From Collimonas humicola (GTDB lineage: Bacteria; Pseudomonadota; Gammaproteobacteria; Burkholderiales; Burkholderiaceae_D), in NCBI RefSeq assembly GCF_018304945.1, contig NZ_JAGQEE010000005.1, positions 124,001-188,000 of the forward strand: a stretch of 64,000 bases of DNA, written 5' to 3'. The notes below the pieces were generated by a model. It searched no databases. It saw only the letters and a list, made by a program, of their open reading frames with translations, and had not been told where the DNA came from. Position numbers and translations under genes: made by a program. Shown piece after piece: positions 32,458 through 41,908 of this stretch. The stretch's first letter is position 1, and the number at the start of each line of letters is the position of its first letter.

Positions 32458-34143
32458 TCAGCGCTCGGCTTGGTAAATATCGTAGTCCTTGGTTTCCTTG
32501 ATAAACAGCATGCCGATGACGAAAGTGACGGCTGCAATCACGATCGGATACCACAGGCCGTAGTAGATATCGCCCTTGAAGGCCACCAGCGCAAACGCCG
32601 TGGTTGGCAGCAAGCCGCCGAACCAGCCGTTGCCGATGTGGTAAGGCATCGACATCGAGGTGTAGCGGATGCGGGTAGGGAACATTTCAACCAGCATCGC
32701 GGCGATCGGGCCATACACCATGGTGACGTAGATGACCAGGATGAACAGCAGCAACAGCACCATCGGCTTGTTCATCTGTTCCGGATCGGCCTTGGTCGGA
32801 TAGCCGGCTGCCTTGATGTCGCCCGACAGTTCGGCCGAGAAAGCCTTGTCCTTGGCGGCAGCGTCTTCTTTCGACAGGCCATTGGCATCGTACGAAGTCA
32901 GGATCTTGTCGCCGATCTTGATGGTAGCTACCGAACCTGCTTCGCCGACGACGTTTTCATAGTTGACCGAAGCCGCCGACAATTTGGCTTTGGCGATGTC
33001 GCAGGACGATGTGAACTTCTTGGTGCCGGTCGGGTTGAACTGGAACTGGCAGGCGGCCGGATCGGCGGTGACGATCACCGGTGCGCTTTTCAACGCTGCT
33101 TCCAGCGCAGGATTCGCATAGTGGGTCAGGCCGGAGAAGATCGGGAAATAGGTCAGCGCGGCAATCAGGCAGCCCGCCATGATGATCGGCTTGCGGCCGA
33201 TCTTGTCGGACAGCGTACCGAAGATCACGAAGAACGGCGTACCCAGCAACAGCGCCAATGCGATCAGGATGTTCGCGGTCGACATGTCGACCTTGAGCGA
33301 CTGGGTCAGGAAGAACAGGGCGTAGAACTGGCCTGTGTACCAGACCACCGCCTGGCCGGCGGTCAGGCCGATCAGCGCCAGGATCACCAGCTTGAGGTTT
33401 TTCCATTGGCCGAAGGCTTCTGTCAGCGGCGCCTTGGAAGTCTTGCCTTCCGCTTTCATGCGGGCAAACGCCGGCGATTCATTCATCGACAGGCGGATCC
33501 AGACCGAAACCGCCAGCAGGATGACGGAGACCAGGAAGGGAATGCGCCAGCCCCAGGCTGAAAACGCTTCTTCGCCAACGGCGCTGCGTACGCCCAGGAT
33601 CACCAGCAGCGACAGGAACAGGCCCAGGGTCGCGGTGGTTTGAATCCAGGAGGTGAACGCGCCGCGCTTGTCGTTCGGCGCATGCTCGGCGACATAGGTG
33701 GCGGCCCCGCCGTATTCGCCGCCCAGCGCCAGGCCCTGCAAGATCCGCAGGGTGATCAGGATGATAGGCGCGGCGATGCCGATCGAGGCGTAATTGGGCA
33801 GGAGGCCGACGATGAACGTCGAGGCGCCCATGATCAGGATCGTCACCAGGAAGGTGAACTTGCGGCCGATCATATCGCCCAGGCGGCCGAACACCAGCGC
33901 GCCGAACGGCCGCACGATGAAGCCTGCGGCAAATGCCAGCAGAGCAAAAATGAAGCCGGTATTAGGGTCGGTGCCGGAAAAGAATTGTTTGGCGATAATT
34001 GCCGCCAGCGAGCCGTACAGGTAGAAATCGTACCATTCGAACACGGTGCCCAGAGACGACGCAAAAATAACCTTGCGCTCCTCTGTGGTCAGGCCGCGGT
34101 TGGCGGGTTTAACCCCGCCTGCGGTCGGTTGTAGTGTAGCCAT
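32458..34143 (-). CDS. MHS-family MFS transporter with a soluble insertion
   Basis: A 561-residue carrier, about 110 residues longer than standard MHS proteins. The start has SLGTVFEWYDFYLYGSLAAI, loop 2-3 has RPFGALVFGRLGDMIGRK, and GLALGGEYGGAATYVAEHAP follows. The extra length is a soluble insertion (about residues 350-455) between membrane segments of the second half; it contains two Cys (DPAACQF and TSSCDIA) that could form a disulfide if the loop is periplasmic. Such long members occur in Burkholderiales. The substrate is unknown. It ends in a good terminator and is preceded by a long gap that carries small-RNA-like elements. Confidence 0.88.
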   Translation of the reverse strand: MATLQPTAGGVKPANRGLTTEERKVIFASSLGTVFEWYDFYLYGSLAAIIAKQFFSGTDPNTGFIFALLAFAAGFIVRPFGALVFGRLGDMIGRKFTFLVTILIMGASTFIVGLLPNYASIGIAAPIILITLRILQGLALGGEYGGAATYVAEHAPNDKRGAFTSWIQTTATLGLFLSLLVILGVRSAVGEEAFSAWGWRIPFLVSVILLAVSVWIRLSMNESPAFARMKAEGKTSKAPLTEAFGQWKNLKLVILALIGLTAGQAVVWYTGQFYALFFLTQSLKVDMSTANILIALALLLGTPFFVIFGTLSDKIGRKPIIMAGCLIAALTYFPIFSGLTHYANPALEAALKSAPVIVTADPAACQFQFNPTGTKKFTSSCDIAKAKLSAASVNYENVVGEAGSVATIKIGDKILTSYDANGLSKEDAAAKDKAFSAELSGDIKAAGYPTKADPEQMNKPMVLLLLFILVIYVTMVYGPIAAMLVEMFPTRIRYTSMSMPYHIGNGWFGGLLPTTAFALVAFKGDIYYGLWYPIVIAAVTFVIGMLFIKETKDYDIYQAER

Positions 34144-34324
34144 GCTGGTCTCCTAAAATATTTATATTTGGTACAGCTAATTCGGAGTGTGCGGCCCGAA
34201 CCTTACGCGGGACTTGCTTGAAACTTACAGAAACTTACATGGGGGAAATATCGAAGTATTATTTATTGCTTCCTGTCAACTTTGACAGCTGTGCCGATTT
34301 TCCGGCGAAGTTAAAATAACTCCG

Positions 34325-34390
34325 TCTTCTACACTCTCCCCGAGTTTGGATTCGGCCCGTGACCGCAAGGTATCACGGGCCTTTTTTTGT
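34325..34390 (+). ncRNA. Small-RNA-like repeat element, copy A
   Basis: Starts with the pyrimidine-rich ACACTCTCCCC and continues with the family block TTTGGATTCGGCCCG. The hairpin GGCCCGTGA / TCACGGGCC has CCGCAAGGT in the loop and is followed by seven T and GTCC. It lacks the middle CCAACACCTCC part of copies B and D, so it is the shortest copy. The TTGACA at 34282-34287 is too far from the TAAAAT at 34312 for a normal promoter. Confidence 0.5.
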
Positions 34391-34602
34391 CCCTGTTTCA
34401 GGGGCCGGGGCGATAGTGCTCATGCCGCCGTCATACTGCTGTCATCTTGGTTGCGTAAAATGCGAAGTGTTGACTTAGTGCTCACTCATAAAGCCGAATC
34501 CAGCTGAACCCAGCCGGATGTGTGTTTTTCGAAGGGTGTCTTGCCATCAGCAGGTTAGCCGGTAGCCTCGATCACCGGCACCAGATATTCCGTTGACAGA
34601 TG

Positions 34603-34635
34603 AACCCGCTGCCGCAAGGTGTGCGGGTTTTTGCA
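34603..34635 (+). terminator. Terminator-like hairpin with the repeat-family loop
   Basis: AACCCGC and GCGGGTT form a 7-bp stem with CCGCAAGGT in the loop, followed by a short T run. It has no CTCCTCC part upstream, so it is at best a diverged relative of the repeat element. Confidence 0.5.
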
Positions 34636-34732
34636 TTGTCGCGGTTGTGTCCGCAGGCGAATTCGCCCGGGCGCTATAATGTCTGACCGTCCGCGCGACG
34701 GCGATGCAACCCCAGACCTTGATCGAAAAACC

Positions 34733-35434
34733 ATGCCATTTCCCGCAGACCTTGTGACCGATGCCGGCTTGCCGCTACTGCCAGACTCAGTCAGTCAGGC
34801 CGGACTGCGCTATGCCGTCGATGGCGGCCAGCTGGCTGACCTGAAAGCCGCCGGCATCGTGCTGCCGGCTTCGCTGGCCAATGCCGTGCTGAAGCGCCAG
34901 GTCGAGTTTGCCGCCGGCCGCTTGTGCGCCCTGCGGGCCTTGCAAAAACAAGGTTGCGCCGGAGCCGGGACGCTGGCAATCGGCGAGCATCGGGCGCCGC
35001 TCTGGCCGCAGGGTTATATCGGATCGATCAGCCATGGCGACGGCCTGGCCGTCGCGGTGGCGGCCGTGAGCGAGGAATGGCACGCCCTGGGCATCGATAT
35101 CGAAACCGTGCTCAGCCGCGAGGCGGCGCAACCGCTGGTCGAGCATTTGATGACAGCAGCCGAAGTGGCCATCGGCAGCAGCGCCGGCCTGGCGCTGGAG
35201 CGCTGGCTGAGCCTGGTGTTCTCGGCCAAGGAAAGCCTGTTCAAGGCGCTGTATCCGTTTGTCGGCCGCTACTTCGATTTCCTCGACGTCGAGGTGTGCG
35301 AACTGGATGAGGCGCAAGGCAGCCTCATGCTGAGATTGCTGAGCAGCTTGTCGCCACAGTGCGTCAAAGGCAGCCAGTACTGCATCCGCTATCGTTATTC
35401 AGGCGACAACATCGCCACCCTTTGCCTATTCTGA
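34733..35434 (+). CDS. 4'-phosphopantetheinyl transferase (EntD/Sfp-like)
   Basis: A 233-residue enzyme that transfers phosphopantetheine from CoA to a Ser of carrier proteins, the activation step for non-ribosomal peptide, polyketide or fatty-acid carriers. The magnesium and CoA motifs are GYIGSISHGDG, LGIDIETVL and WLSLVFSAKESLFKALYP. A similar N-terminal RQVEFAAGRLCALRAL is typical of the EntD side of the family. I chose the ATG at 34733; the ATG at 34679 lies inside a TATAAT box. No synthase cluster lies in this window, so it probably serves one elsewhere. Confidence 0.9.
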   Translation: MPFPADLVTDAGLPLLPDSVSQAGLRYAVDGGQLADLKAAGIVLPASLANAVLKRQVEFAAGRLCALRALQKQGCAGAGTLAIGEHRAPLWPQGYIGSISHGDGLAVAVAAVSEEWHALGIDIETVLSREAAQPLVEHLMTAAEVAIGSSAGLALERWLSLVFSAKESLFKALYPFVGRYFDFLDVEVCELDEAQGSLMLRLLSSLSPQCVKGSQYCIRYRYSGDNIATLCLF

Positions 35435-35510
35435 CAGCCTGATCGATAGCTGCGAGCCACTGGATATTTGCGGTGCGGCATCTATACTGGAATTCTTCTG
35501 GAGGTTTTTT

Positions 35511-35759
35511 ATGAAGGCAGCCAAGATCATCGAAATGTGGGGTAGGGCGAGTCGCCAGGTGCCGCTGACCAGCGACGACGACATCGTACAGATGTTCGCC
35601 AATGAAATCGCCAAATTGTCCTATAAGCTGACAGAGGAAGAGCTGTACCGGCTGATAGCGGTTGGCGCGCTGGTCTACCAGCGGGGATTCCGCGAGTTTG
35701 ACGGCAATGTCATGGCGGATCTTTTGATCAGGACCCTGCGCGAGGGCGGGCGGGCGTAG
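35511..35759 (+). CDS. Small cytoplasmic protein of unknown function
   Basis: An 82-residue protein I cannot place. A strong GGAGG seven bases before the ATG supports it as real. The sequence is helical and charged (KIIEMWGRASRQVPLTSDDDIVQMF, EEELYRLIAVGALVYQRG) with no signal or membrane segment. A hairpin terminator follows it, shared with the next gene on the other strand. Confidence 0.75.
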   Translation: MKAAKIIEMWGRASRQVPLTSDDDIVQMFANEIAKLSYKLTEEELYRLIAVGALVYQRGFREFDGNVMADLLIRTLREGGRA

Positions 35760-35793
35760 GGCGGTTCCAATCCAATCTTGCTGGGCCAATGAA

Positions 35794-35824
35794 AAAGCCT
35801 GCGTCCTCACGGTTCGCAGGCTTT
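35794..35824. terminator. Terminator between two small genes
   Basis: AAAGCCTGCG (35794-35803) and CGCAGGCTTT (35815-35824) make a 10-bp stem. Flanking A and T runs let it work for the genes on both sides. Confidence 0.75.
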
Positions 35825-35863
35825 CATGATGTCGGCCAAAGCGAGAGTCTAAGCAGCTTAGGC

Positions 35864-36085
35864 TTAGACCCTTACGATTTTTTCACCGGTCTGGTCAATC
35901 ACAAATTTTCCTTCCGCATACGGAGTCAGCGCCCGTCCGTCATGCAGCTTGTAGATTTCACGTCCCGGCAAGGATGCGACGGTGCCGTTCGCAGTCGCTC
36001 TTTCAATCGAGTCTTTATAGCACTCGACATGATAGGCGTTCCCTGTTTCTTTGCCCTTGGCGTCGAATTTTTCTGTTAAATCCAT
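35864..36085 (-). CDS. Small protein of unknown function
   Basis: A 73-residue protein without a signal peptide: MDLTEKFDAKGKETGNAYHV, a single Cys in VECYKDS, a helical part, then LHDGRALTPYAEGKFVIDQTG which reads as two beta strands. AGGAG six bases before the ATG is a strong ribosome site. I do not recognise a domain. It faces another small gene across a shared terminator. Confidence 0.72.
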   Translation of the reverse strand: MDLTEKFDAKGKETGNAYHVECYKDSIERATANGTVASLPGREIYKLHDGRALTPYAEGKFVIDQTGEKIVRV

Positions 36086-36272
36086 AAATGTCTCCTTGTG
36101 CGCGAGGTTGGAATACCTGCGGTAACGATACCAGATTTTATTTCACGGTTGTAGTAATCAATGCGTTCATCCGGCCTCGCGCCTGCCCGCTTTGCTGCTA
36201 TCCATTGCCGCTAGCCGTTGCGGCGCGTACCATGAGGGCCGCAGCGTGGCAAATTCTACAGAGGAAGCAGTA

Positions 36273-36635
36273 ATGAACGACGGTTTGACAAGAGATGAAT
36301 ACGACGCCCTGGGACAGATAGGCAAGGGAGCGCACGGCAGGGTGAGCGCTTGCGTGGCAAGGAACACCAAGCGCCTGGCCGGCCTGAAATACATCGCCTA
36401 TGAAAAAAACGGCGGCCTGTCATTGACCGAGAAAGGGCAGCAGACCCTGTTCATCAGGAATTGCATTGACGGCCTGCGCGCCGTGGCGAACGATCCCGGC
36501 GCCAAGCTGGCGGCCGACGTCGCCATGTTCCTCGGCAAAAAGGGCCACATCAGCGCCAGGCCGGCCGGCGACGGTTTCGACATTACCGACAAAGGGCGCG
36601 AATCGCTGGCGGATATTGACTCTGCAGCCGGCTAG
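36273..36635 (+). CDS. Small protein of unknown function
   Basis: A 120-residue cytoplasmic protein. It has GLTRDEYDALGQIGKG at the start, then RLAGLKYIAYEKNGGLSLTEKGQQTL, and FDITDKGRESLADID near the end. The two segments with L-x-L/I-T-x-K-G look like a repeated wing of a winged-helix fold, so DNA or protein binding is possible but not shown. GAGGAAG lies before the ATG at 36273, which is preferred to an upstream in-frame ATG at 36192. Confidence 0.7.
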   Translation: MNDGLTRDEYDALGQIGKGAHGRVSACVARNTKRLAGLKYIAYEKNGGLSLTEKGQQTLFIRNCIDGLRAVANDPGAKLAADVAMFLGKKGHISARPAGDGFDITDKGRESLADIDSAAG

Positions 36636-36769
36636 GCGCCGTGCGTGGGGCGCCAGGCCGGCTTGTTTTGCGTAAAAAAACAAGCCCGGCAGGTTATGCC
36701 CGGAGTATCAAGCTTGTGCGTTCGGTAAAAATCTATATGAATCAAAGACTTGATTGAAATCATTGATGG

Positions 36770-36820
36770 TTATCCACAGGACTGTCCACAATTTCTGTGG
36801 GTAACTTTTACTGTGGATAA
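36770..36820. promoter_or_regulatory. Cluster of four DnaA boxes
   Basis: Two perfect DnaA boxes flank the cluster: TTATCCACA (36770-36778, +) and TGTGGATAA (36812-36820, minus orientation). Two near-matches lie between: CTGTCCACA (36782-36790) and TGTGGGTAA (36796-36804). It sits just before the TTG start of the dehydrogenase gene at 36851. Confidence 0.75.
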
Positions 36821-36850
36821 TGTTTCCGCAATTCTGTTCGGAGTCTGACT

Positions 36851-37912
36851 TTGCATACCAATACCAAGCCCTTGCTGAAAATCGGCCTGCTAGGCTACGG
36901 CTTTGCCGGCGCCACCTTCCATGCACCGCTGATCGGCCATTCCGGCCGCACCGAGGTCAGCGCCATCGCCAGCAGCCAGGCGGACATCGCCAGGCAAGCA
37001 TGGCCGCAAGCGCGCATCGTTGCCGGCCTGGACGCCTTGCTGGCGGATCCGGCCATCGATTGCATCGTCGTTGCGACGCCCAACGACACCCATTTCGATT
37101 TCGCCCGCCGTACGTTGGCAGCCGGCAAGCACGTGGTGGTCGACAAGCCGGTCACCCTGACGGCCGAGGAGGCGCGCGTCCTGGCGCGCACCGCGCGCGA
37201 CAGCAAACTGCTGCTGGCGCCGTTCCACAATCGCCGCTGGGATGGTGATTTCCGCACGGTGCAGGCGCTGCTGGCCAGCGGCCGGCTCGGTCACATCACT
37301 CATTTTGAATCGCATTTCGACCGCTTCCGGCCTGCCGTGCGGCAGCGTTGGCGCGAGAATGCGCTCAGCGGCGGCGGCTTGCTGTACGACCTCGGCCCGC
37401 ACCTGGTCGACCAGGCGCTGCTACTGTTCGGCGCGCCGCAAACCGTGAATGCGACGGTGGCCGCCTATCGCGAGCATGCCGAGGCGGACGATTATGTCCA
37501 CCTGCAGCTGGGCTACGCCGACAAGCAGGTGGTGCTGCATGCCAGTGCCTTGAGCGCGCTGGAAGCGCCGCGCTTCGTATTGCACGGCCGCCGCGGCAGC
37601 TATCTGAAAAACGGCCTGGACAGCCAGGAAGACCAGCTCAAGGCGGGCTTGAGGCCGGGCCAGCCGGGCTGGGCCAGCAATCCGCCAGGCCTGATCCGGG
37701 AAGTGGACGGCGCGCTCGACTTACGCGGCGAACTGGCCACCCTGGATGGCGCTTATGTCGAGTTTTACCGCGCAGTGGCGGCATCGATCCAGGATGGCGC
37801 GCCGTTTCCAGTGGCGCCGGATGCCGCCGTCAGCGTGGCCGAAATCCTTGAGCTGGCGCGCCAGAGCGCTGAAGAAGGGCGCCGGCTGCCTTATGTTGCA
37901 AAGCAATGGTAA
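36851..37912 (+). CDS. Gfo/Idh/MocA-family oxidoreductase
   Basis: A 353-residue NAD(P)-dependent dehydrogenase of the Gfo/Idh/MocA family. The Rossmann start is LLKIGLLGYGFAGATFHAPLI, the family motif is KHVVVDKPVTLTAEEA (EKP-type, here DKP), and the C-terminal domain has NALSGGGLLYDLGPHLVDQAL with the catalytic His. The length is normal and the sequence resembles E. coli YdgJ-type members. The start codon is TTG with GGAG seven bases before it; no ATG is near. The substrate, usually a sugar or polyol, is unknown. The four DnaA boxes end 30 bases before the start. Confidence 0.92.
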   Translation: MHTNTKPLLKIGLLGYGFAGATFHAPLIGHSGRTEVSAIASSQADIARQAWPQARIVAGLDALLADPAIDCIVVATPNDTHFDFARRTLAAGKHVVVDKPVTLTAEEARVLARTARDSKLLLAPFHNRRWDGDFRTVQALLASGRLGHITHFESHFDRFRPAVRQRWRENALSGGGLLYDLGPHLVDQALLLFGAPQTVNATVAAYREHAEADDYVHLQLGYADKQVVLHASALSALEAPRFVLHGRRGSYLKNGLDSQEDQLKAGLRPGQPGWASNPPGLIREVDGALDLRGELATLDGAYVEFYRAVAASIQDGAPFPVAPDAAVSVAEILELARQSAEEGRRLPYVAKQW

Positions 37913-37952
37913 CGCTATCATCCATGTGAATAACTGTTATGCGTTAAATAAA

Positions 37953-37980
37953 TTGGCGGCTTGCAGATCGGCTCTATATA
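37953..37980 (+). promoter_or_regulatory. Possible promoter of small-RNA-like copy B
   Basis: TTGGCG (37953-37958), 16 bases, TATATA (37975-37980), so transcription would begin near 37987, at the start of the conserved part. Confidence 0.5.
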
Positions 37981-37984
37981 GTTG

Positions 37985-38057
37985 CACCTGTCTCCTCCAA
38001 CACCTCCTAAGGTTTGGATTCAAGCCCGCACCGCAAGGTCCGCGGGCTTTTTTTTGT
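37985..38057 (+). ncRNA. Small-RNA-like repeat element, copy B
   Basis: The order is CACCTGTCTCCTCCAA, CACCTCCTAA, GGTTTGGATTCAAG, then the hairpin GCCCGC / GCGGGC with CCGCAAGGT in the loop, eight T and GTC. CACCTCCT is identical to the anti-Shine-Dalgarno end of 16S rRNA. Almost the same sequence recurs as copy D 2.7 kb away. A promoter-like sequence ends just upstream. Confidence 0.6.
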
Positions 38058-38273
38058 CTGGGGAATTTGCGGCGGATGCGCAGCATTCGGCAATTTTTCC
38101 TTGCCTTCCTGGCAAAGACTGTGTATTGTCCACCAATCGCCTGTCGCATTCAGCTGTAAAAATACGGATAAATGCGATTCGGGCCAATACAAGAGTAGAT
38201 TCGTTACACGTCGGAGCCACTTTCCAGATAGGTCTGGGTTTCGGGAATCTTCTCCTGTATTGATGAATGCAAA

Positions 38274-38308
38274 AAACCTGCTTGCCTCGCGGCCGCAGGT
38301 TTTTTTAC
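38274..38308 (+). terminator. Rho-independent terminator-like hairpin between copies B and C
   Basis: AACCTGC and GCAGGTT form a 7-bp stem with a GC-rich loop, preceded by an A run and followed by seven T. No coding frame ends before it, so it may end another small RNA; TTCTCCTG lies about 20 bases upstream. Confidence 0.6.
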
Positions 38309-38332
38309 GTCCGACACCGTATTTTTACTATA

Positions 38333-38361
38333 TTGCAGTGCGCAATATTTCGCCCTATAGT
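38333..38361 (+). promoter_or_regulatory. Possible promoter of small-RNA-like copy C
   Basis: TTGCAG (38333-38338), 17 bases, TATAGT (38356-38361). A start near 38368 would again be at the beginning of the conserved pyrimidine-rich part. Confidence 0.55.
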
Positions 38362-38363
38362 GG

Positions 38364-38436
38364 TTTCGTCTCCTCCAACTCCCCCTATGGATTGGATTTA
38401 GCCCGCGCCGCAAGGTACAGCGGGCTTTTTTTTTGC
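38364..38436 (+). ncRNA. Small-RNA-like repeat element, copy C
   Basis: TTTCGTCTCCTCCAACTCC, then CCCTATGGATTGGATTTAGCCCGC, the stem GCCCGC / GCGGGC with CCGCAAGGT in the loop, and nine T. The anti-Shine-Dalgarno part has drifted (ACTCCCCCTA), while CTCCTCCAAC, TTGGATT and the hairpin are kept. Confidence 0.55.
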
Positions 38437-38474
38437 TTGCGACAAAAGGAGGAAGCGGGGGACGTCGCTGCCGC

Positions 38475-38633
38475 TTATTGACGGGGTTTGACGGTCCGGC
38501 CTCGCTGCAGGCGGGCATTGGAGCGGGCGTTGCGGTTATAGCTGGAGAGGAAGCCGCGCGTCTTGAGCTCTTTGCGCAGCAGGAAAATGGCGAGCAGGGC
38601 GGCGAAACTGGCTGAGGCAAGGATGATTAACAT
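38475..38633 (-). CDS. Small single-span membrane peptide, 52 residues
   Basis: An ATG at 38633 opens a 52-codon frame ending in TAA. The N-terminal half is one hydrophobic segment (MLIILASASFAALLAIFLL) followed at once by a basic stretch (RKELKTRGF) and an Arg/Asn-rich tail ending VKPRQ, the pattern of a small inner-membrane protein with the tail in the cytoplasm. I see no strong ribosome site. It lies between copy C of the small-RNA-like element and a LysR gene, on the same strand as the latter. Confidence 0.5.
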   Translation of the reverse strand: MLIILASASFAALLAIFLLRKELKTRGFLSSYNRNARSNARLQRGRTVKPRQ

Positions 38634-38709
38634 TTTTTGTCGGCTTTCTGGGTGATGCAGGAGCAGAGCAAAATTCGCGCCAGATAGGCTTGTCCTTCAC
38701 CCCGGCCGT

Positions 38710-39579
38710 TCATCGCGCCATCAGCGTATCCAACAGCCAGCTGCCGGCCGGTCCCAGTCCGCGGCGGCGCGACCAGACCGCATCGACCTGTATGCTTTTC
38801 GGCCAGCCGCGCACCTGCAGTTCCAGCAGGCTGTGGGCGGCGAAGCGCTTGGCCAGCCAGTAGGGCAGTTCGGCCCAGCCAAAGCCCAGTTCCGTCATTT
38901 CCAGCAGCAGCAGGTAGCTGGAGGCGGTCCAGGAGCGGCCGCGGCGGCGCTGCACCGCGTCGGCGCTGTCTTCGCCATAGGTGCTGAGCCGCAGTTCGCG
39001 CGCGTTGTGCAGCATTTCGGTTGTAATGTGGCGCGCCTTGGCGAGTGGATGCTGCTTGCCGACATACAGGCCGATGGCCGAGCGGTCTGGCACCGATTCG
39101 AAGCCGATATCCGGCGGGTAATCCGCCTGCGCCGCCACCAGCCCGAGATGGGCGCGCCCCTCTTGCACCAGCGCTACCACGTCGTTGCGCTCCGCAATCA
39201 GGCATTCCAGCTCCAGTTCGGGGTAGCGCCGTTCAAAACTGGTGAGGATTTCTTCAAAGCGGTCCGACTGGTAAGTATCCGACAGCACCAGCGTCAGCTG
39301 CGGTTCGAGGCCGTCGGCCAGCCGGTGGGCAGAGCGTTCCAGGCGGTCGCTGGCTTCGATCACCTGCTGCGCATGCACCAGCATCGCCTGGCCTTGTGGC
39401 GTCAGGCTGGGACGGCGGGTAGTGCGGTCGAACAGGGGCAGGCCGAGGTCGATTTCCAGGTTGGCGATAGCTTCGCTGACGGTCGATTGCTGCTTGCCCA
39501 ATTTGCGCGCCGCCGCGGAAAACGAGCCCAGCGTCGCCGCTTCGACAAACATGAACAGGGTTTCCAGCGAATGGCGCAT
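38710..39579 (-). CDS. LysR-family transcriptional regulator
   Basis: A 289-residue LysR-type regulator. The winged helix is at residues 1-60 (LETLFMFVEAATLGSFSAAARKLGKQQSTVSEAIANLEIDLGLPLFDRT), followed by a ligand-binding domain with LVLSDTYQSDRFEEIL and LLLLEMTELGFGWAELP. It is divergent from a PACE efflux gene with 109 bp between them. LysR regulators next to PACE genes are common, so it probably controls that gene. Confidence 0.92.
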   Translation of the reverse strand: MRHSLETLFMFVEAATLGSFSAAARKLGKQQSTVSEAIANLEIDLGLPLFDRTTRRPSLTPQGQAMLVHAQQVIEASDRLERSAHRLADGLEPQLTLVLSDTYQSDRFEEILTSFERRYPELELECLIAERNDVVALVQEGRAHLGLVAAQADYPPDIGFESVPDRSAIGLYVGKQHPLAKARHITTEMLHNARELRLSTYGEDSADAVQRRRGRSWTASSYLLLLEMTELGFGWAELPYWLAKRFAAHSLLELQVRGWPKSIQVDAVWSRRRGLGPAGSWLLDTLMAR

Positions 39580-39688
39580 GGCGTAATGGTTCCAATGTAT
39601 CGGTTTATCCGATGGTTACTACTTTGATAGTATCAGCTTAATCGAAGAAAATCCTTGCGTCAGACATTTCTGAAGCAACGGAGGCAAT

Positions 39689-40129
39689 ATGAATACCAAT
39701 AAAACCTGGGGTGAGCGCATTACTCACGCGCTGATTTTCGAAGCGCTGGCAGTCGGCCTGACCGCGCCGGTCTTGTCGTGGGTAATGAAAATGCCGATGG
39801 CGCATGCGGGCGCGCTGACCCTGATGATCTCGCTGGTGGCGATGAGCTGGAACATGATTTTCAACGCCATGTTCGACCGCGTTGAACGGCACTGGCGGAT
39901 CGTCCGTACCATGGCGGTCCGGGCGGTGCATGCGGTCGCATTCGAAGCCGGCCTGGTGGCGATCGTGGTGCCGCTGGTGGCGTGGTGGCTGGACGTGAGC
40001 CTGCTTGACGCCCTGATTCTCGACATCGGCTTGCTGCTTTTCTTCCTGCCTTACACCTTCCTGTTCAACCTGGGCTACGACAAGCTGCGCGAAGCGATGT
40101 TGAAGCGGCGCGCCTTGCTTAATAATTGA
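39689..40129 (+). CDS. PACE-family (AceI-like) efflux transporter
   Basis: A 146-residue inner-membrane protein with four hydrophobic segments, made of two bacterial-transmembrane-pair repeats. The repeat signature is seen twice: RITHALIFEALAVGL and RAVHAVAFEAGLVAI, each with the acidic residue needed for transport, and WNMIFNAMFDRVERHW and YTFLFNLGYDKLRE as matching second parts. PACE members export biocides such as chlorhexidine or natural polyamines with protons. ACGGAGG lies nine bases before the ATG. The divergent LysR gene supports an inducible efflux pair. Confidence 0.92.
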   Translation: MNTNKTWGERITHALIFEALAVGLTAPVLSWVMKMPMAHAGALTLMISLVAMSWNMIFNAMFDRVERHWRIVRTMAVRAVHAVAFEAGLVAIVVPLVAWWLDVSLLDALILDIGLLLFFLPYTFLFNLGYDKLREAMLKRRALLNN

Positions 40130-40201
40130 TCAGGGATGTGCACAGCCATCGCAGGCAGCGCCTGCCTGCGACGGATTGAAAATTCCAGGCGAAGGTCCAG
40201 A

Positions 40202-40456
40202 TTATTGAAAATAGCCGCTGCCGACCACCAGCGGCTTTCCTTCCAGGCCGGCACCGATCAGGCGGCGGGCGACGCCTTCGATCTTGCTCTGGAAAGCCCG
40301 ATAGGTATCGAGCAGGTCGAGCTTGGGATCTTTCGAATGCGACAGGTCGGAAAGAGTGGTTGCCGGCACCAGGCACTGATATTGTTTGAACTCGACTGTT
40401 ACCGAAAACAGGATGCCGGCTTTAGTGAGAAGAGGTGCAGCAAGTACGTTGTCCAT
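40202..40456 (-). CDS. Small protein, possibly DUF1488-like
   Basis: An 84-residue cytoplasmic protein: ILFSVTVEFKQYQCLVPATTLSDL suggests three beta strands and is followed by a helix with FQSKIEGVARRLIGAG. The order recalls DUF1488 proteins, but I am not certain. Two ATG codons lie side by side (40459, 40456); GGAG spacing favours the second. A longer in-frame start at 40558 lacks a ribosome site. Confidence 0.6.
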   Translation of the reverse strand: MDNVLAAPLLTKAGILFSVTVEFKQYQCLVPATTLSDLSHSKDPKLDLLDTYRAFQSKIEGVARRLIGAGLEGKPLVVGSGYFQ

Positions 40457-40657
40457 CATGGTCTCCACGATAATACGGTTGCGCAGAGTCAGACGGGATC
40501 GATAGGGCAGGCTATCTGGCTGCTCCCCAATGATGTACGCAAACTGTCCCGGTGGCAAGGACTATGCAAGCGCTGGTTTTGAGTTTTGTTATGCACTCCC
40601 CGAATATCAGGTATGCGAACTATAAAGCATACAAACAGGGGGCGTATTGTTATAGTC

Positions 40658-40731
40658 ACACCTGTCTCCTCCAACACCTCCTAGGTTTGGATTCAGCCCG
40701 CAAGCCTCAGCGCTGCGGGCTTTTTTTTGTC
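40658..40731 (+). ncRNA. Small-RNA-like repeat element, copy D
   Basis: CACCTGTCTCCTCCAA, CACCTCCTA, GGTTTGGATTCA, then GCCCGCA / TGCGGGC as the stem, eight T and GTC. The first 40 bases match copy B almost exactly; the loop differs (AGCCTCAGCGC). TATAGT at 40651-40656 is a good -10 box at the expected distance; the -35 is poor, but a GTATGC/GCATAC dyad lies there. Confidence 0.6.
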
Positions 40732-40745
40732 CGCGCGCGCATGTG

Positions 40746-40779
40746 AAAAACCCGCCGCGCCAGGCTGGCGGGGCGGGTT
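40746..40779 (-). terminator. Terminator of the ABC/deaminase operon
   Basis: AACCCGCC (40749-40756) and GGCGGGTT (40772-40779) make an 8-bp stem; on the minus strand it runs into five T, 50 bases after the deaminase stop. Confidence 0.75.
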
Positions 40780-40828
40780 GCGGTAAAGTCCGCCGGTGGT
40801 TCAGACGGCGCTGGCTGAACCGGCAGGA

Positions 40829-41908
<1,080 letters not shown>

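Follow-up and report, generated by a model that had tools for sequence, protein, structure and literature searches.

Four short intergenic elements (A to D) in a 64,000-nucleotide stretch of the genome of the soil bacterium Collimonas humicola (the window) are probably copies of a trans-acting small RNA (sRNA) of about 66 nt of the RF02278 type, which would block ribosome binding sites (RBSs) through one seed placed under several nutrient-responsive promoters. B, C and D belong to this family, their structure covaries, and the copies are conserved one by one across the genus with distinct conserved upstream motifs. Each copy would be a free-standing transcription unit with its own promoter, a 5' seed, a small hairpin and a terminator. 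The single-stranded, CU-rich 5' seed UGUCUCCUCC (Site 1), aided by a CU-rich stretch in the loop of the small hairpin (Site 2), would pair with purine-rich RBSs; the terminator is a GC-rich hairpin followed by a long run of U. Such pairing would block translation of a set of mRNAs, mainly those of uptake and catabolic genes, and the copies would be non-redundant, a common seed and differing promoters bringing several nutrient signals to a single output. For Collimonas itself we infer that the RNAs are transcribed and block ribosome sites, and we likewise infer which regulators and which targets are involved. An anatomy of two hairpins, pairing with ribosome sites and effects on growth have already been published for Burkholderia and Bordetella relatives; what is new is a candidate reason for the many copies, namely a constant seed combined with promoters that differ between copies, each copy keeping its own across the genus.

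Identity and structure of the four elements

The initial annotation proposed four plus-strand elements between likely genes, and all four were located there, within 2-8 bases of its coordinates (Table 1; gene context is given by mechanically called open reading frames (ORFs)). It also pointed to a betaproteobacterial family of toxic small RNAs and, as a parallel in concept, to the alphaproteobacterial CUCCUCC small RNAs (CcsR or 'cuckoo' type). An Rfam cmscan of the 64-kb window identifies that family as RF02278 ("Betaproteobacteria toxic small RNA"), whose curated gathering cut-off of 50 bits is exceeded by B (54.2 bits, E 4.1e-8), C (53.3 bits, E 7e-8) and D (56.6 bits, E 1e-8), and which is the sole gathering-level family in the whole-Rfam scan of the window. 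Element A stays under the cut-off, with 36.9 bits (E 9.3e-5 in a 6.7-kb search), and reaches 48.9 bits (E 4.5e-9) with R2, a covariance model made from 18 copies whose training set includes B, C and D and excludes A. A is a divergent, sub-threshold relative and no plain sibling of B-D. The proposal of a single motif for all four elements is slightly too strong, since A has CGTCTTCTAC as its first motif instead of TCTCCTCC.

Table 1. Coordinates of the elements and their upstream features within the window
Feature	Position	Strand	Description
Dyad upstream of A	34273..34288	.	CTGTCAACTTTGACAG; 23 nt before the -10-like box
-10-like box of A	34312-34317		TAAAAT; our reading, candidate
Element A	34323..34388	+	divergent RF02278-type two-hairpin sRNA; degenerate 5' seed UCUUCUAC, conserved hairpin with UCCCC loop, then terminator
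B promoter	37928..37982	+	dyad GAATAACTGTTATGC (37928-37942), TTAAATAAA, -35 TTGGCG (37953-37958), 18 nt, -10 TATAGT (37977-37982)
Element B	37989..38055	+	RF02278 sRNA; Site 1 UGUCUCCUCC, CACCUCCU in hairpin 1, terminator hairpin, U8
C promoter	38330..38361	+	our reading: -35 TTGCAG, 17 nt, -10 TATAGT; overlapping palindrome ATATTGCAGTGCGCAATAT
Element C	38367..38433	+	RF02278 sRNA; Site 1 CGUCUCCUCC, hairpin-1 loop region CCCCCUAU, terminator, U9
D promoter	40602..40656	+	dyad GAATATCAGGTATGC (40602-40616), CTATAAAGCATAC (40620-40632), -10 TATAGT (40651-40656)
Element D	40663..40728	+	RF02278 sRNA; Site 1 UGUCUCCUCC, CACCUCCU, terminator, U8

All four elements fold into two consecutive hairpins, the second being the terminator with its U run. 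The fold z values against shuffles are -4.21 (A), -4.04 (B), -3.50 (C) and -3.93 (D), and shuffles folded equally well in 0/200 cases for each of A, B and C and in 1/200 for D. The initial annotation had let its case depend on covariation of the hairpins among relatives, and both hairpins covary. In an alignment of 18 sequences that was not fitted to structure, the covariation score was 0.272 against a shuffled mean of 0.114 (0/500 shuffles reached it), and 8 of the 16 base pairs were changed on both sides; on a larger, model-fitted alignment this was so for 15/16 pairs. Two of five covariation measures on the 18 sequences were unremarkable, with 26/500 shuffles as high for pairs changed on both sides and 207/500 for further pair types.

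The seed and its candidate targets

The stretch CACCTCCT equals the 16S rRNA tail as generally known, and among the four elements it occurs in B and D only, as had been claimed. The weight placed on it was nevertheless too great: CACCTCCT / CACCUCCU is present in 32/122 Collimonas matches, versus 97/122 with an exact GTCTCCTCC. The latter is exact in every B (13/13), C (13/13) and D (9/9) orthologue and throughout groups OG3, OG4, OG6, OG7 and OG8, and is kept in 0/12 Collimonas A copies. The invariant seed is UCUCCUCC, which reaches beyond the Shine-Dalgarno (SD) core, rather than CACCTCCT. Lacking Site 1, A may have another target set or may be decaying, despite the conservation of its loop and dyad.

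The pattern GGAGGAGA-N3-8-ATG occurs at 12 sites versus 2 in controls, and these sites include CstA, a porin, a sugar-binding protein and HemS. A perfect 11-nt complement of Site 1 was found in one gene only, an fdhA-like gene that was not found in 4/12 Collimonas genomes; of six upstream regions that were readable, three have a shorter complement. On seven purine-rich ribosome sites, B and D were computed to form stronger duplexes than a (shorter) 16S tail does. These energies leave the folding of the mRNA out of account, set RNAs of different lengths side by side and are gauged against 14 start sites only.

Could the RNAs be general translation brakes, which by mimicking the 16S tail through CACCUCCU lower all SD-led translation and regulate growth in a dose-dependent manner, with no selection among mRNAs? 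B and D do contain CACCUCCU, the computed duplex strengths fit, and family members are reported to inhibit growth (PMC5688073). Considering, however, that just 6/13 B copies carry CACCUCCU, that UCUCCUCC is invariant in most groups, and that, as reported in PMC11722255, Bordetella without S17 has 92 genes up and S17S left exponential growth of E. coli unimpaired, we regard a general brake as improbable.

Copy number and upstream motifs

The genome-wide count that the initial annotation suggested finds copies also outside the window. In the own genome, 10 score above the cut-off and A is recovered at E 1.8e-5 (about 11 in total), and 13/14 other Collimonas genomes have 8-13 matches at E<=1e-4; one 1.7-Mb genome of the genus (1/14) has no RF02278 match at that threshold. 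A syntenic A copy is present in 12 Collimonas genomes, own included. Ten of the 11 own copies fall in groups found at the same place in at least 8 genomes, and the eleventh, L010, is found in 3.

Why should one genome carry so many copies of one RNA? The different promoters on the copies may explain it. Judging by motif likeness, the own copies seem to form several classes: a shared dyad promoter (B, D and three others), a PhoB-type box (two others), CTGTYA-N4-TRACAG (A) and a PhaR-like site (C and two others).

The motif CTGTYA-N4-TRACAG lies upstream of 12/12 A copies, at -49/-50 in 11. Genome G012 is the exception: there the usual place is occupied by CTGTGATTACTGACAG, and it is a further dyad, at -66, that matches exactly. 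The entire own genome has 9 such sites (reversed-pattern control, 0), and this dyad also precedes L015, a weak copy, at equal spacing. The composite promoter of B recurs at equal distance upstream of D, L003, L004 and L008. It is kept in 9 D copies from 9 genomes, and B's own promoter is kept also in genome G010, whose sequence farther upstream differs. Among 32 copies from other genera of the family, the best-scoring window for the composite lies at offset 0 or +1 in 25, and the composite beats mononucleotide shuffles at p<=0.05 in 20. Conservation of promoters in relatives, another check that had been proposed, is borne out in that the upstream boxes keep a constant distance. A simple consensus scan supports the initial annotation only in part: B is the one element for which it lists a promoter (TTGGCG-18-TATAGT), and all four terminators escape its terminator rule.

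The OG6 and OG9 copies carry a GTCA direct repeat (11 nt apart, ahead of a -10 box) phased as at the own pstS, making these candidate PhoB sites. This PhoB-type box is on 9/9 OG6 and 4/4 OG9 copies and on the own OG9-like copy L014, and on none of A-D. Across the own genome, GTCAY-N6-GTCAY-N10-TANNNT matches 12 times, against 0 for the reversed pattern, and the matches include sites ahead of pstS, ugpB-like, phospholipase-C-like (two) and ppk-like genes and ahead of two sRNA copies.

PhaR is a repressor released from DNA upon polyhydroxybutyrate granule formation. As the criterion for PhaR-type sites we took one of two cores close to the promoter, YGCRNYGCR or TG[N]TGC[N]3GCAA. YGCRNYGCR is found upstream of 26/59 copies (shuffled mean 3.0, maximum 7), which are candidate PhaR sites; within Collimonas it is found in C (9/13, with the core at -33 in 9/13), OG7 (9/9) and OG8 (8/8), and in no A, B or D copy. 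The C palindrome ATATTGCAGTGCGCAATAT fits this core, and the own phaR promoter region (L242) carries the similar ATATTGCAATGCAATA. A site resembling the PhaR type appears common to C, two other own copies and many copies in other Burkholderiales.

The copy number might instead reflect gene dosage or neutral (tandem) duplication with no functional divergence, as could be argued from the 378 bp between the starts of B and C, from local duplicates of another copy in two genomes (L078, L122) and from clusters of three and six copies in two other genera. It is difficult to square this with the place-conserved groups to which 10/11 own copies belong and with the conserved motif that each has upstream, and we consider it unlikely, about as much so as the general brake. 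That the elements are mere terminators or 3' UTR ends of neighbouring genes, with a CU-rich leader shared by descent, is least credible of all and can hardly be upheld: a strong hairpin and U run end all four, B begins 76 bp behind a plus-strand ORF and the consensus scan lists B's promoter only, but a minus-strand ORF lies upstream of A, C comes after another terminator, D is separated by a minus-strand ORF from the closest likely gene on the plus strand (though there is an overlapping mechanical ORF on that strand), the upstream boxes, B's own included, are conserved at constant distance, and B, C and D have a covarying 5' hairpin and invariant Site 1 that terminators do not need, so that the reading of the elements as terminators of upstream transcripts, which the initial annotation had named as fatal to its proposal, is unlikely.

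Relatives and biological meaning

The family has been called 'toxic' since 2012, as cited in PMC5688073 and PMC4603805, after the inhibition of E. coli by cloned members (Kimelman 2012, via both papers), though the E. coli result with S17S (PMC11722255) indicates that the name is not true of every member. The reported properties of ncS27 are that overexpression slows growth and silencing speeds it, and Burkholderia RF02278 RNAs are reported to be up in glucose medium and starvation (PMC5688073). The B. cenocepacia RNAs ncS03, ncS05, ncS27 and ncS62 resemble those of Collimonas in their two hairpins, CU-rich unpaired RBS-complementary sites, dispersed copies and RF02278 membership (PMC5688073). 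That species has three to five copies, compared with 8-13 in Collimonas; its copies are stated not to be arranged in tandem, whereas Collimonas copies cluster, and a common upstream motif is described for 3/4 of the double-hairpin RNAs (PMC5688073).

Binding to ribosome sites of many mRNAs is reported or predicted for ncS27 (PMC5688073) and S17S (PMC11722255); S17S directly represses one gene, with RBS pairing proposed for 70 (PMC11722255). This Bordetella pertussis RNA shares with those of Collimonas a terminator hairpin and a closely similar 5' region in which both Sites lie (PMC11722255, a preprint). It is characterized there as one RNA, which RNase E releases from a precursor of 190 nt, whereas most Collimonas copies appear to start at Site 1; the leader-bearing L006 (OG7) looks like the S17/ncS27 counterpart. 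In Herbaspirillum seropedicae SmR1, of a related plant-associated genus, the RF02278 RNAs Hsnc059, 063, 086 and 107 were found with RNA-seq data, four reported copies versus about 11 in the own Collimonas genome (PMC7011215). Expression as free short RNAs is reported for relatives (PMC5688073, PMC7011215). Neisseria NgncR_162/163 (NmsR) are functionally alike, being adjacent near-copies with single-stranded sites over RBSs of uptake and catabolic genes, but with two copies and three stem-loops they are unlike the Collimonas RNAs (PMC9973317). Sinorhizobium meliloti MmgR, a different RNA from a different bacterial class, is an sRNA reported to be repressed by PhaR, the control that we infer for part of the RF02278 family (PMC12542648).

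Perhaps, though we hold this only tentatively, the control of nutrient storage in Burkholderiales has its post-transcriptional arm in the RF02278 RNAs, with PhaR acting on the ancestral and many other copies and Collimonas adding PhoB and at least two other regulators. When carbon is in excess or phosphate is scarce, one common RNA would then be released to block RBSs and so hold back uptake and catabolism, and every extra copy would connect another signal to the common output. Why genomes keep several 'toxic' RNA copies is a question left by the published family literature, as far as the accessible sources go. Collimonas, with 8-13 copies and separable conserved upstream motifs, makes it directly testable as one seed with different switches, and the PhaR- and PhoB-type sites suggest carbon storage and phosphate as inputs. 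If this is true, 'toxic RNA' would be a nutrient-status brake common to much of the order Burkholderiales.

Identity and structure of elements A-D

All three cmscan matches in the 64-kb window at Rfam's own thresholds are to RF02278 (Betaproteobacteria toxic small RNA, cut-off 50 bits), and they fall on B, C and D; the small RNA family is real, and the initial annotation had named the right one. A is a fourth relative, which scores 36.9 bits, under the cut-off, and is detected at 48.9 bits (E 4.5e-9) by R2, an RNA model built here from copies that include B, C and D and not A. A permissive search of 34140-40830 returned, beyond relatives of RF02278, only two weak matches to another small RNA model, RF02837 (D 20.2 and C 18.7 bits, against a cut-off of 49.5). 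The first model, R1, for which RNAalifold on the raw MAFFT alignment gave no pair, was a sequence-only model and went unused. For R2 the structure was set by hand on 18 of 32 sequences; four of the 14 excluded were visibly misaligned in hairpin 1, and the remaining exclusions were made for compactness of the alignment.

Features of the A-D region, with positions in the window
Feature	Position	Strand	Description
ORF	32458-34143	-	divergent from A
A	34323-34388	+	small RNA, sub-threshold relative of RF02278
PhoB-type box	34430-34461		ahead of the unit 3' of A
Unit 3' of A	34470-34631	+	conserved, transcript-like
B	37989-38055	+	small RNA, RF02278
TTGCCT	38101-38106		promoter-like, 17 nt before TATTGT
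TATTGT	38124-38129		promoter-like
Element between B and C	38185-38304	+	structured RNA candidate
C	38367-38433	+	small RNA, RF02278
D	40663-40728	+	small RNA, RF02278

Each RNA is about 66 nt long and runs from a CU-rich single-stranded 5' segment (Site 1) through hairpin 1, whose loop is likewise rich in C and U (Site 2), and a linker to a terminator hairpin, whose loop is CCGCAAGG in A, B and C and whose tail has 7-9 U. The predicted folds of A-D are more stable than those of dinucleotide shuffles by 3.5 to 4.2 standard deviations, and hairpin 1 has compensatory pairs (UCCAA/UUGGA, UCCAC/GUGGA, UCUAU/AUAGA, UCCGA/UCGGA). The check for covariation in the hairpins came out favourably: for 18 sequences aligned without structure, the covariation score was matched by none of 500 shuffles. 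Both sides changed in 8 of 16 pairs on these sequences (shuffled mean 5.8; 26/500 shuffles as high), and further pair types were ordinary (207/500 as high). On 116 distinct model-fitted rows both sides changed in 15 of 16 pairs (0/500 shuffles), an alignment of this type being biased towards its own structure.

A consensus scan of the region listed a promoter for B, no promoter for A, C or D, and none of the four terminators. That the elements are only terminators of other transcripts is unlikely, for A, C and D because of ORF orientation and for B because it has its own conserved promoter.

The window lies on contig C20 of a 5.62-Mb genome, and the LysR gene between C and D has a product with 89-90% identity to its counterparts in seven Collimonas records, so that the host is a Collimonas. 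The region holds another, separate and highly conserved structured RNA candidate, between B and C. It is found in 13/13 Collimonas regions (90% mean column identity, the DNA just upstream being variable), and has a long closing stem (CAAUACA/UGUAUUG), its own terminator-like hairpin and a fold z of -4.08. It has no Rfam match at E<=1 and no complete ORF of >=15 codons on the plus strand, and among the compared loci its exact cores occur in Collimonas only. In one strain the stretch separating the B and C orthologues is interrupted by some 190-200 bp bearing inverted repeats of the CGTCATTCCCGCGAACGCGGGAATCC type, apparently a small repeat element.

Copy number, seed and candidate targets

The family is not confined to A-D. 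The genome-wide count gave 10 matches above the RF02278 cut-off, and 11 at E<=1e-4 with A included; at the latter threshold there are 8-13 matches each in 13 of the 14 further genomes compared from this genus. The fourteenth (1.7 Mb, listed as 99% complete) has no RF02278 match at E<=1e-4 and no PhaR, the polyhydroxybutyrate regulator, at E<=1e-20. In an order-wide sample of 399 genomes, at least 222 have one match or more and at least 153 have one above the cut-off; most of the positive genomes have one or two, and the highest counts are 11 in the same family and 5 outside it, all of these being lower bounds since 12 candidates per genome were scored with stricter filters. At the LysR locus the A-D cluster was found in Collimonas only: in 19 such loci from other genera, among them Glaciimonas, Herbaspirillum and Polaromonas, R2, which leans to its own family, gave nothing at E<=0.05. 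Clusters do exist in two other genera of the family, with six copies in L155 (1972-17582, genome G019) and three in L156 (1325-2998, genome G015); their composite promoters are related and their hairpin-1 pairs different.

Among 137 R2 matches, 122 Collimonas matches from 13 genomes were retained; those dropped were nine from outgroups (L155, L156) and six weak ones near A, which fall on the terminator of the neighbouring unit. The 122 comprise the 11 own copies, all listed matches of eight other genomes, and, from four more genomes, the A-D cluster region, whole or in part, plus one extra copy. Flanking DNA sorts copies into groups with one copy per genome: A (12), B (13), C (13), D (9), and the orthologous groups OG3 (10), OG4 (9), OG6 (9), OG7 (9) and OG8 (8). 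Judged by these flanks, which recur across genomes, the copies are old and distinct.

GTCTCCTCC is exact in 97/122 matches, the exceptions including all 12 A copies, while the Site 2 loop varies by group, with one form each in OG3 and OG4 and nine forms in nine genomes in OG6. Site 1 is therefore, on conservation, the constrained seed, and Site 2 is constrained in some copies only. The proposed anti-Shine-Dalgarno motif stands as a CU-rich seed, with less weight on CACCTCCT, which had been taken as its key part: of 13 B copies 6 carry CACCTCCT, and C, OG6, OG7 and OG8 lack it throughout, whereas GTCTCCTCC is in every copy of B and of these four, in counts for which groups were picked by motifs (OG6 and OG7 partly by Site 1 itself) and sizes are those of the flank-based groups.

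The complement of Site 1 is GGAGGAGACA. Exact TGGAGGAGACA 11-mers number seven in the genome: six are small RNA genes, and the seventh, the sole perfect 11-nt complement of Site 1 elsewhere, is the ribosome site of an fdhA-like gene (Pfam: zinc alcohol dehydrogenase; contig C22, 98680; L182/L208). The gene ahead of it presumably encodes a glycine-betaine-type binding protein. The fdhA-like gene is found in 8/12 relatives; among six readable upstream regions, three retain GGAGGAGAC and three carry GAAGGAGAC or CAAGGAGAC. A looser pattern, GGAGGAGA-N3-8-ATG, has 12 sites versus 2 for controls. By Pfam these precede a porin, a sugar-binding protein, CstA, HemS, a BON-domain protein, a chalcone-isomerase-like protein and the fdhA-like dehydrogenase; the rest are one small RNA copy, one protein without a Pfam family and three doubtful genes. 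Computed without mRNA folding, the duplexes of B and D with seven sites of this kind have energies of -16.6 to -24.1 kcal/mol; the same sites give -10.9 to -14.4 with the 16S tail (a shorter RNA), and 14 hand-chosen start sites in the window give -5.3 to -19.1 with B and D. The ORF divergent from A, which we take to encode an MFS transporter-like protein, has a ribosome site, AGGAGACC, that complements part of Site 1 (-16.2 kcal/mol with B), and is a possible local target. The candidate targets would fit the transport and catabolic targets described for relatives in PMC5688073 and PMC11722255.

Promoters of the copies

The main new point is that promoters differ between copies. B, D and three further copies (L003, L004, L008) have in common GAATAWCNGKTAT, followed by AATAAAGCAGAC or AATAAATTGG and by TATAGT, with constant spacing to the RNA. 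Promoter conservation in relatives was checked with a matrix from these five, applied to 32 copies in the family's other genera: the best of 67 windows falls at offset 0 or +1 in 25/32, with p<=0.05 against 300 mononucleotide shuffles in 20/32, and the matrix scan found no trace in seven. From 30 outgroup loci, L061 and L074 (near contig ends, where the fixed offset missed the match) and the sub-threshold L067, L068 and L075 were removed; five loci from other families (L048, L049, L052, L055, L059) are outside the matrix scan and inside the PhaR-motif counts.

A has a different upstream element, the dyad CTGTYA-N4-TRACAG, in 12/12 genomes and at the same place in 11. In one genome both half-sites are altered symmetrically (CTGTTAACAATAACAG), as might be expected for a dimer's operator. 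L015, a weak further copy, has an A-type dyad with equal spacing. For the dyad upstream of A, LexA (CTGT-N8-ACAG) and lux-box (CTG-N10-CAG) identities were considered, and the nine dyad sites of the own genome favoured neither.

Two other copies, L009 and L014, have GTCAY-N6-GTCAY-N10-TANNNT upstream. This pattern has 12 sites in the own genome versus 0 when reversed. One precedes a pstS-like gene (PstS match), and four precede matches to UgpB, polyphosphate kinase and phospholipase C (two), the matches being of 201 residues and below whole-protein cut-offs. Because of these counts and the phosphate-type genes behind five sites, the pattern is a fair definition of the box of PhoB, the phosphate regulator, in this genome. 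The other boxes lie before a MauG-like gene (one), before small RNA copies (two) and behind A (one), and for three sites no ORF was found. The box is kept in 9/9 OG6 and 4/4 OG9 copies. The box behind A belongs to a second conserved transcript-like unit, present in 12 Collimonas genomes: PhoB-type GTCA repeats and a -10 box are followed by a core, GCCGGTAGCCTCGATCACCGGC, that is invariant, and by an end resembling a terminator. With no Rfam match at E<=1, and a fold z of only -1.54 for most of its length, it is a candidate phosphate-controlled small RNA.

A further set of copies has PhaR-type sites. The Herbaspirillum PhbF/PhaR motif TG[N]TGC[N]3GCAA (PMC3206438) is exact within 90 nt upstream of 12/59 copies and within one mismatch in 26/59, the copies not being independent (six are from G019). 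Dinucleotide shuffles gave 0.17 exact (max 2) and 1.97 near (max 5); in another four stretches of 90 nt at the same loci the counts are 0, 1, 0, 1 exact and 5, 4, 4, 3 near. The S. meliloti PhaR core YGCRNYGCR (PMC12542648) is found in 26/59 copies, against 3.0 (max 7) in shuffles and 9, 9, 3 and 6 in the other stretches, which are richer in G+C. Among Collimonas copies the core is in OG7 (9/9), OG8 (8/8) and C (9/13, all at -33), in OG3 at a different place (3/10, at -87), and in 1/19 of OG2 with OG11; it is absent from A, B, D, OG4 and OG6. The own phaR promoter region carries ATATTGCAATGCAATA, in the core form.

Perhaps PhaR and PhoB control some of these RNAs, a tentative reading of the upstream motifs to which we give slightly less than an even chance. 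Against the PhaR part, the exact 13-mer is missing from the own phaR locus and the core from three of the four window copies; B does have an exact 13-mer, at -95, inside the end of the upstream ORF. PhaR was found in 18/18 chosen genomes with the small RNA and 6/10 without. Since three of the four genomes lacking PhaR are small (1.7-2.0 Mb), genome reduction could explain its absence alongside that of the small RNA. Among the literature matches listed, no paper linked RF02278 to PhaR or PhoB. The main texts of the papers that name RF02278 have no mention of PhaR or hydroxybutyrate (PMC5688073 included), nor, PMC5688073 aside, of PhoB.

Known relatives and the many copies

RF02278 RNAs have been reported elsewhere. 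Those of B. cenocepacia are expressed, overproduction of one slows growth, and predictions place them over ribosome sites (PMC5688073; PMC4603805). In Bordetella, RNase E releases S17S from a longer precursor, and a sigma-54 activator is repressed by S17S (PMC11722255). Herbaspirillum has four such RNAs (PMC7011215); in an RNA-seq study of phosphate in Herbaspirillum (PMC8222739) no mention of small RNAs was found. A-D are thus newly found members of an already known kind, to which they add in copy number, in clustering and in classes of promoter. As to why there are so many copies, one seed with several switches would be a testable answer.
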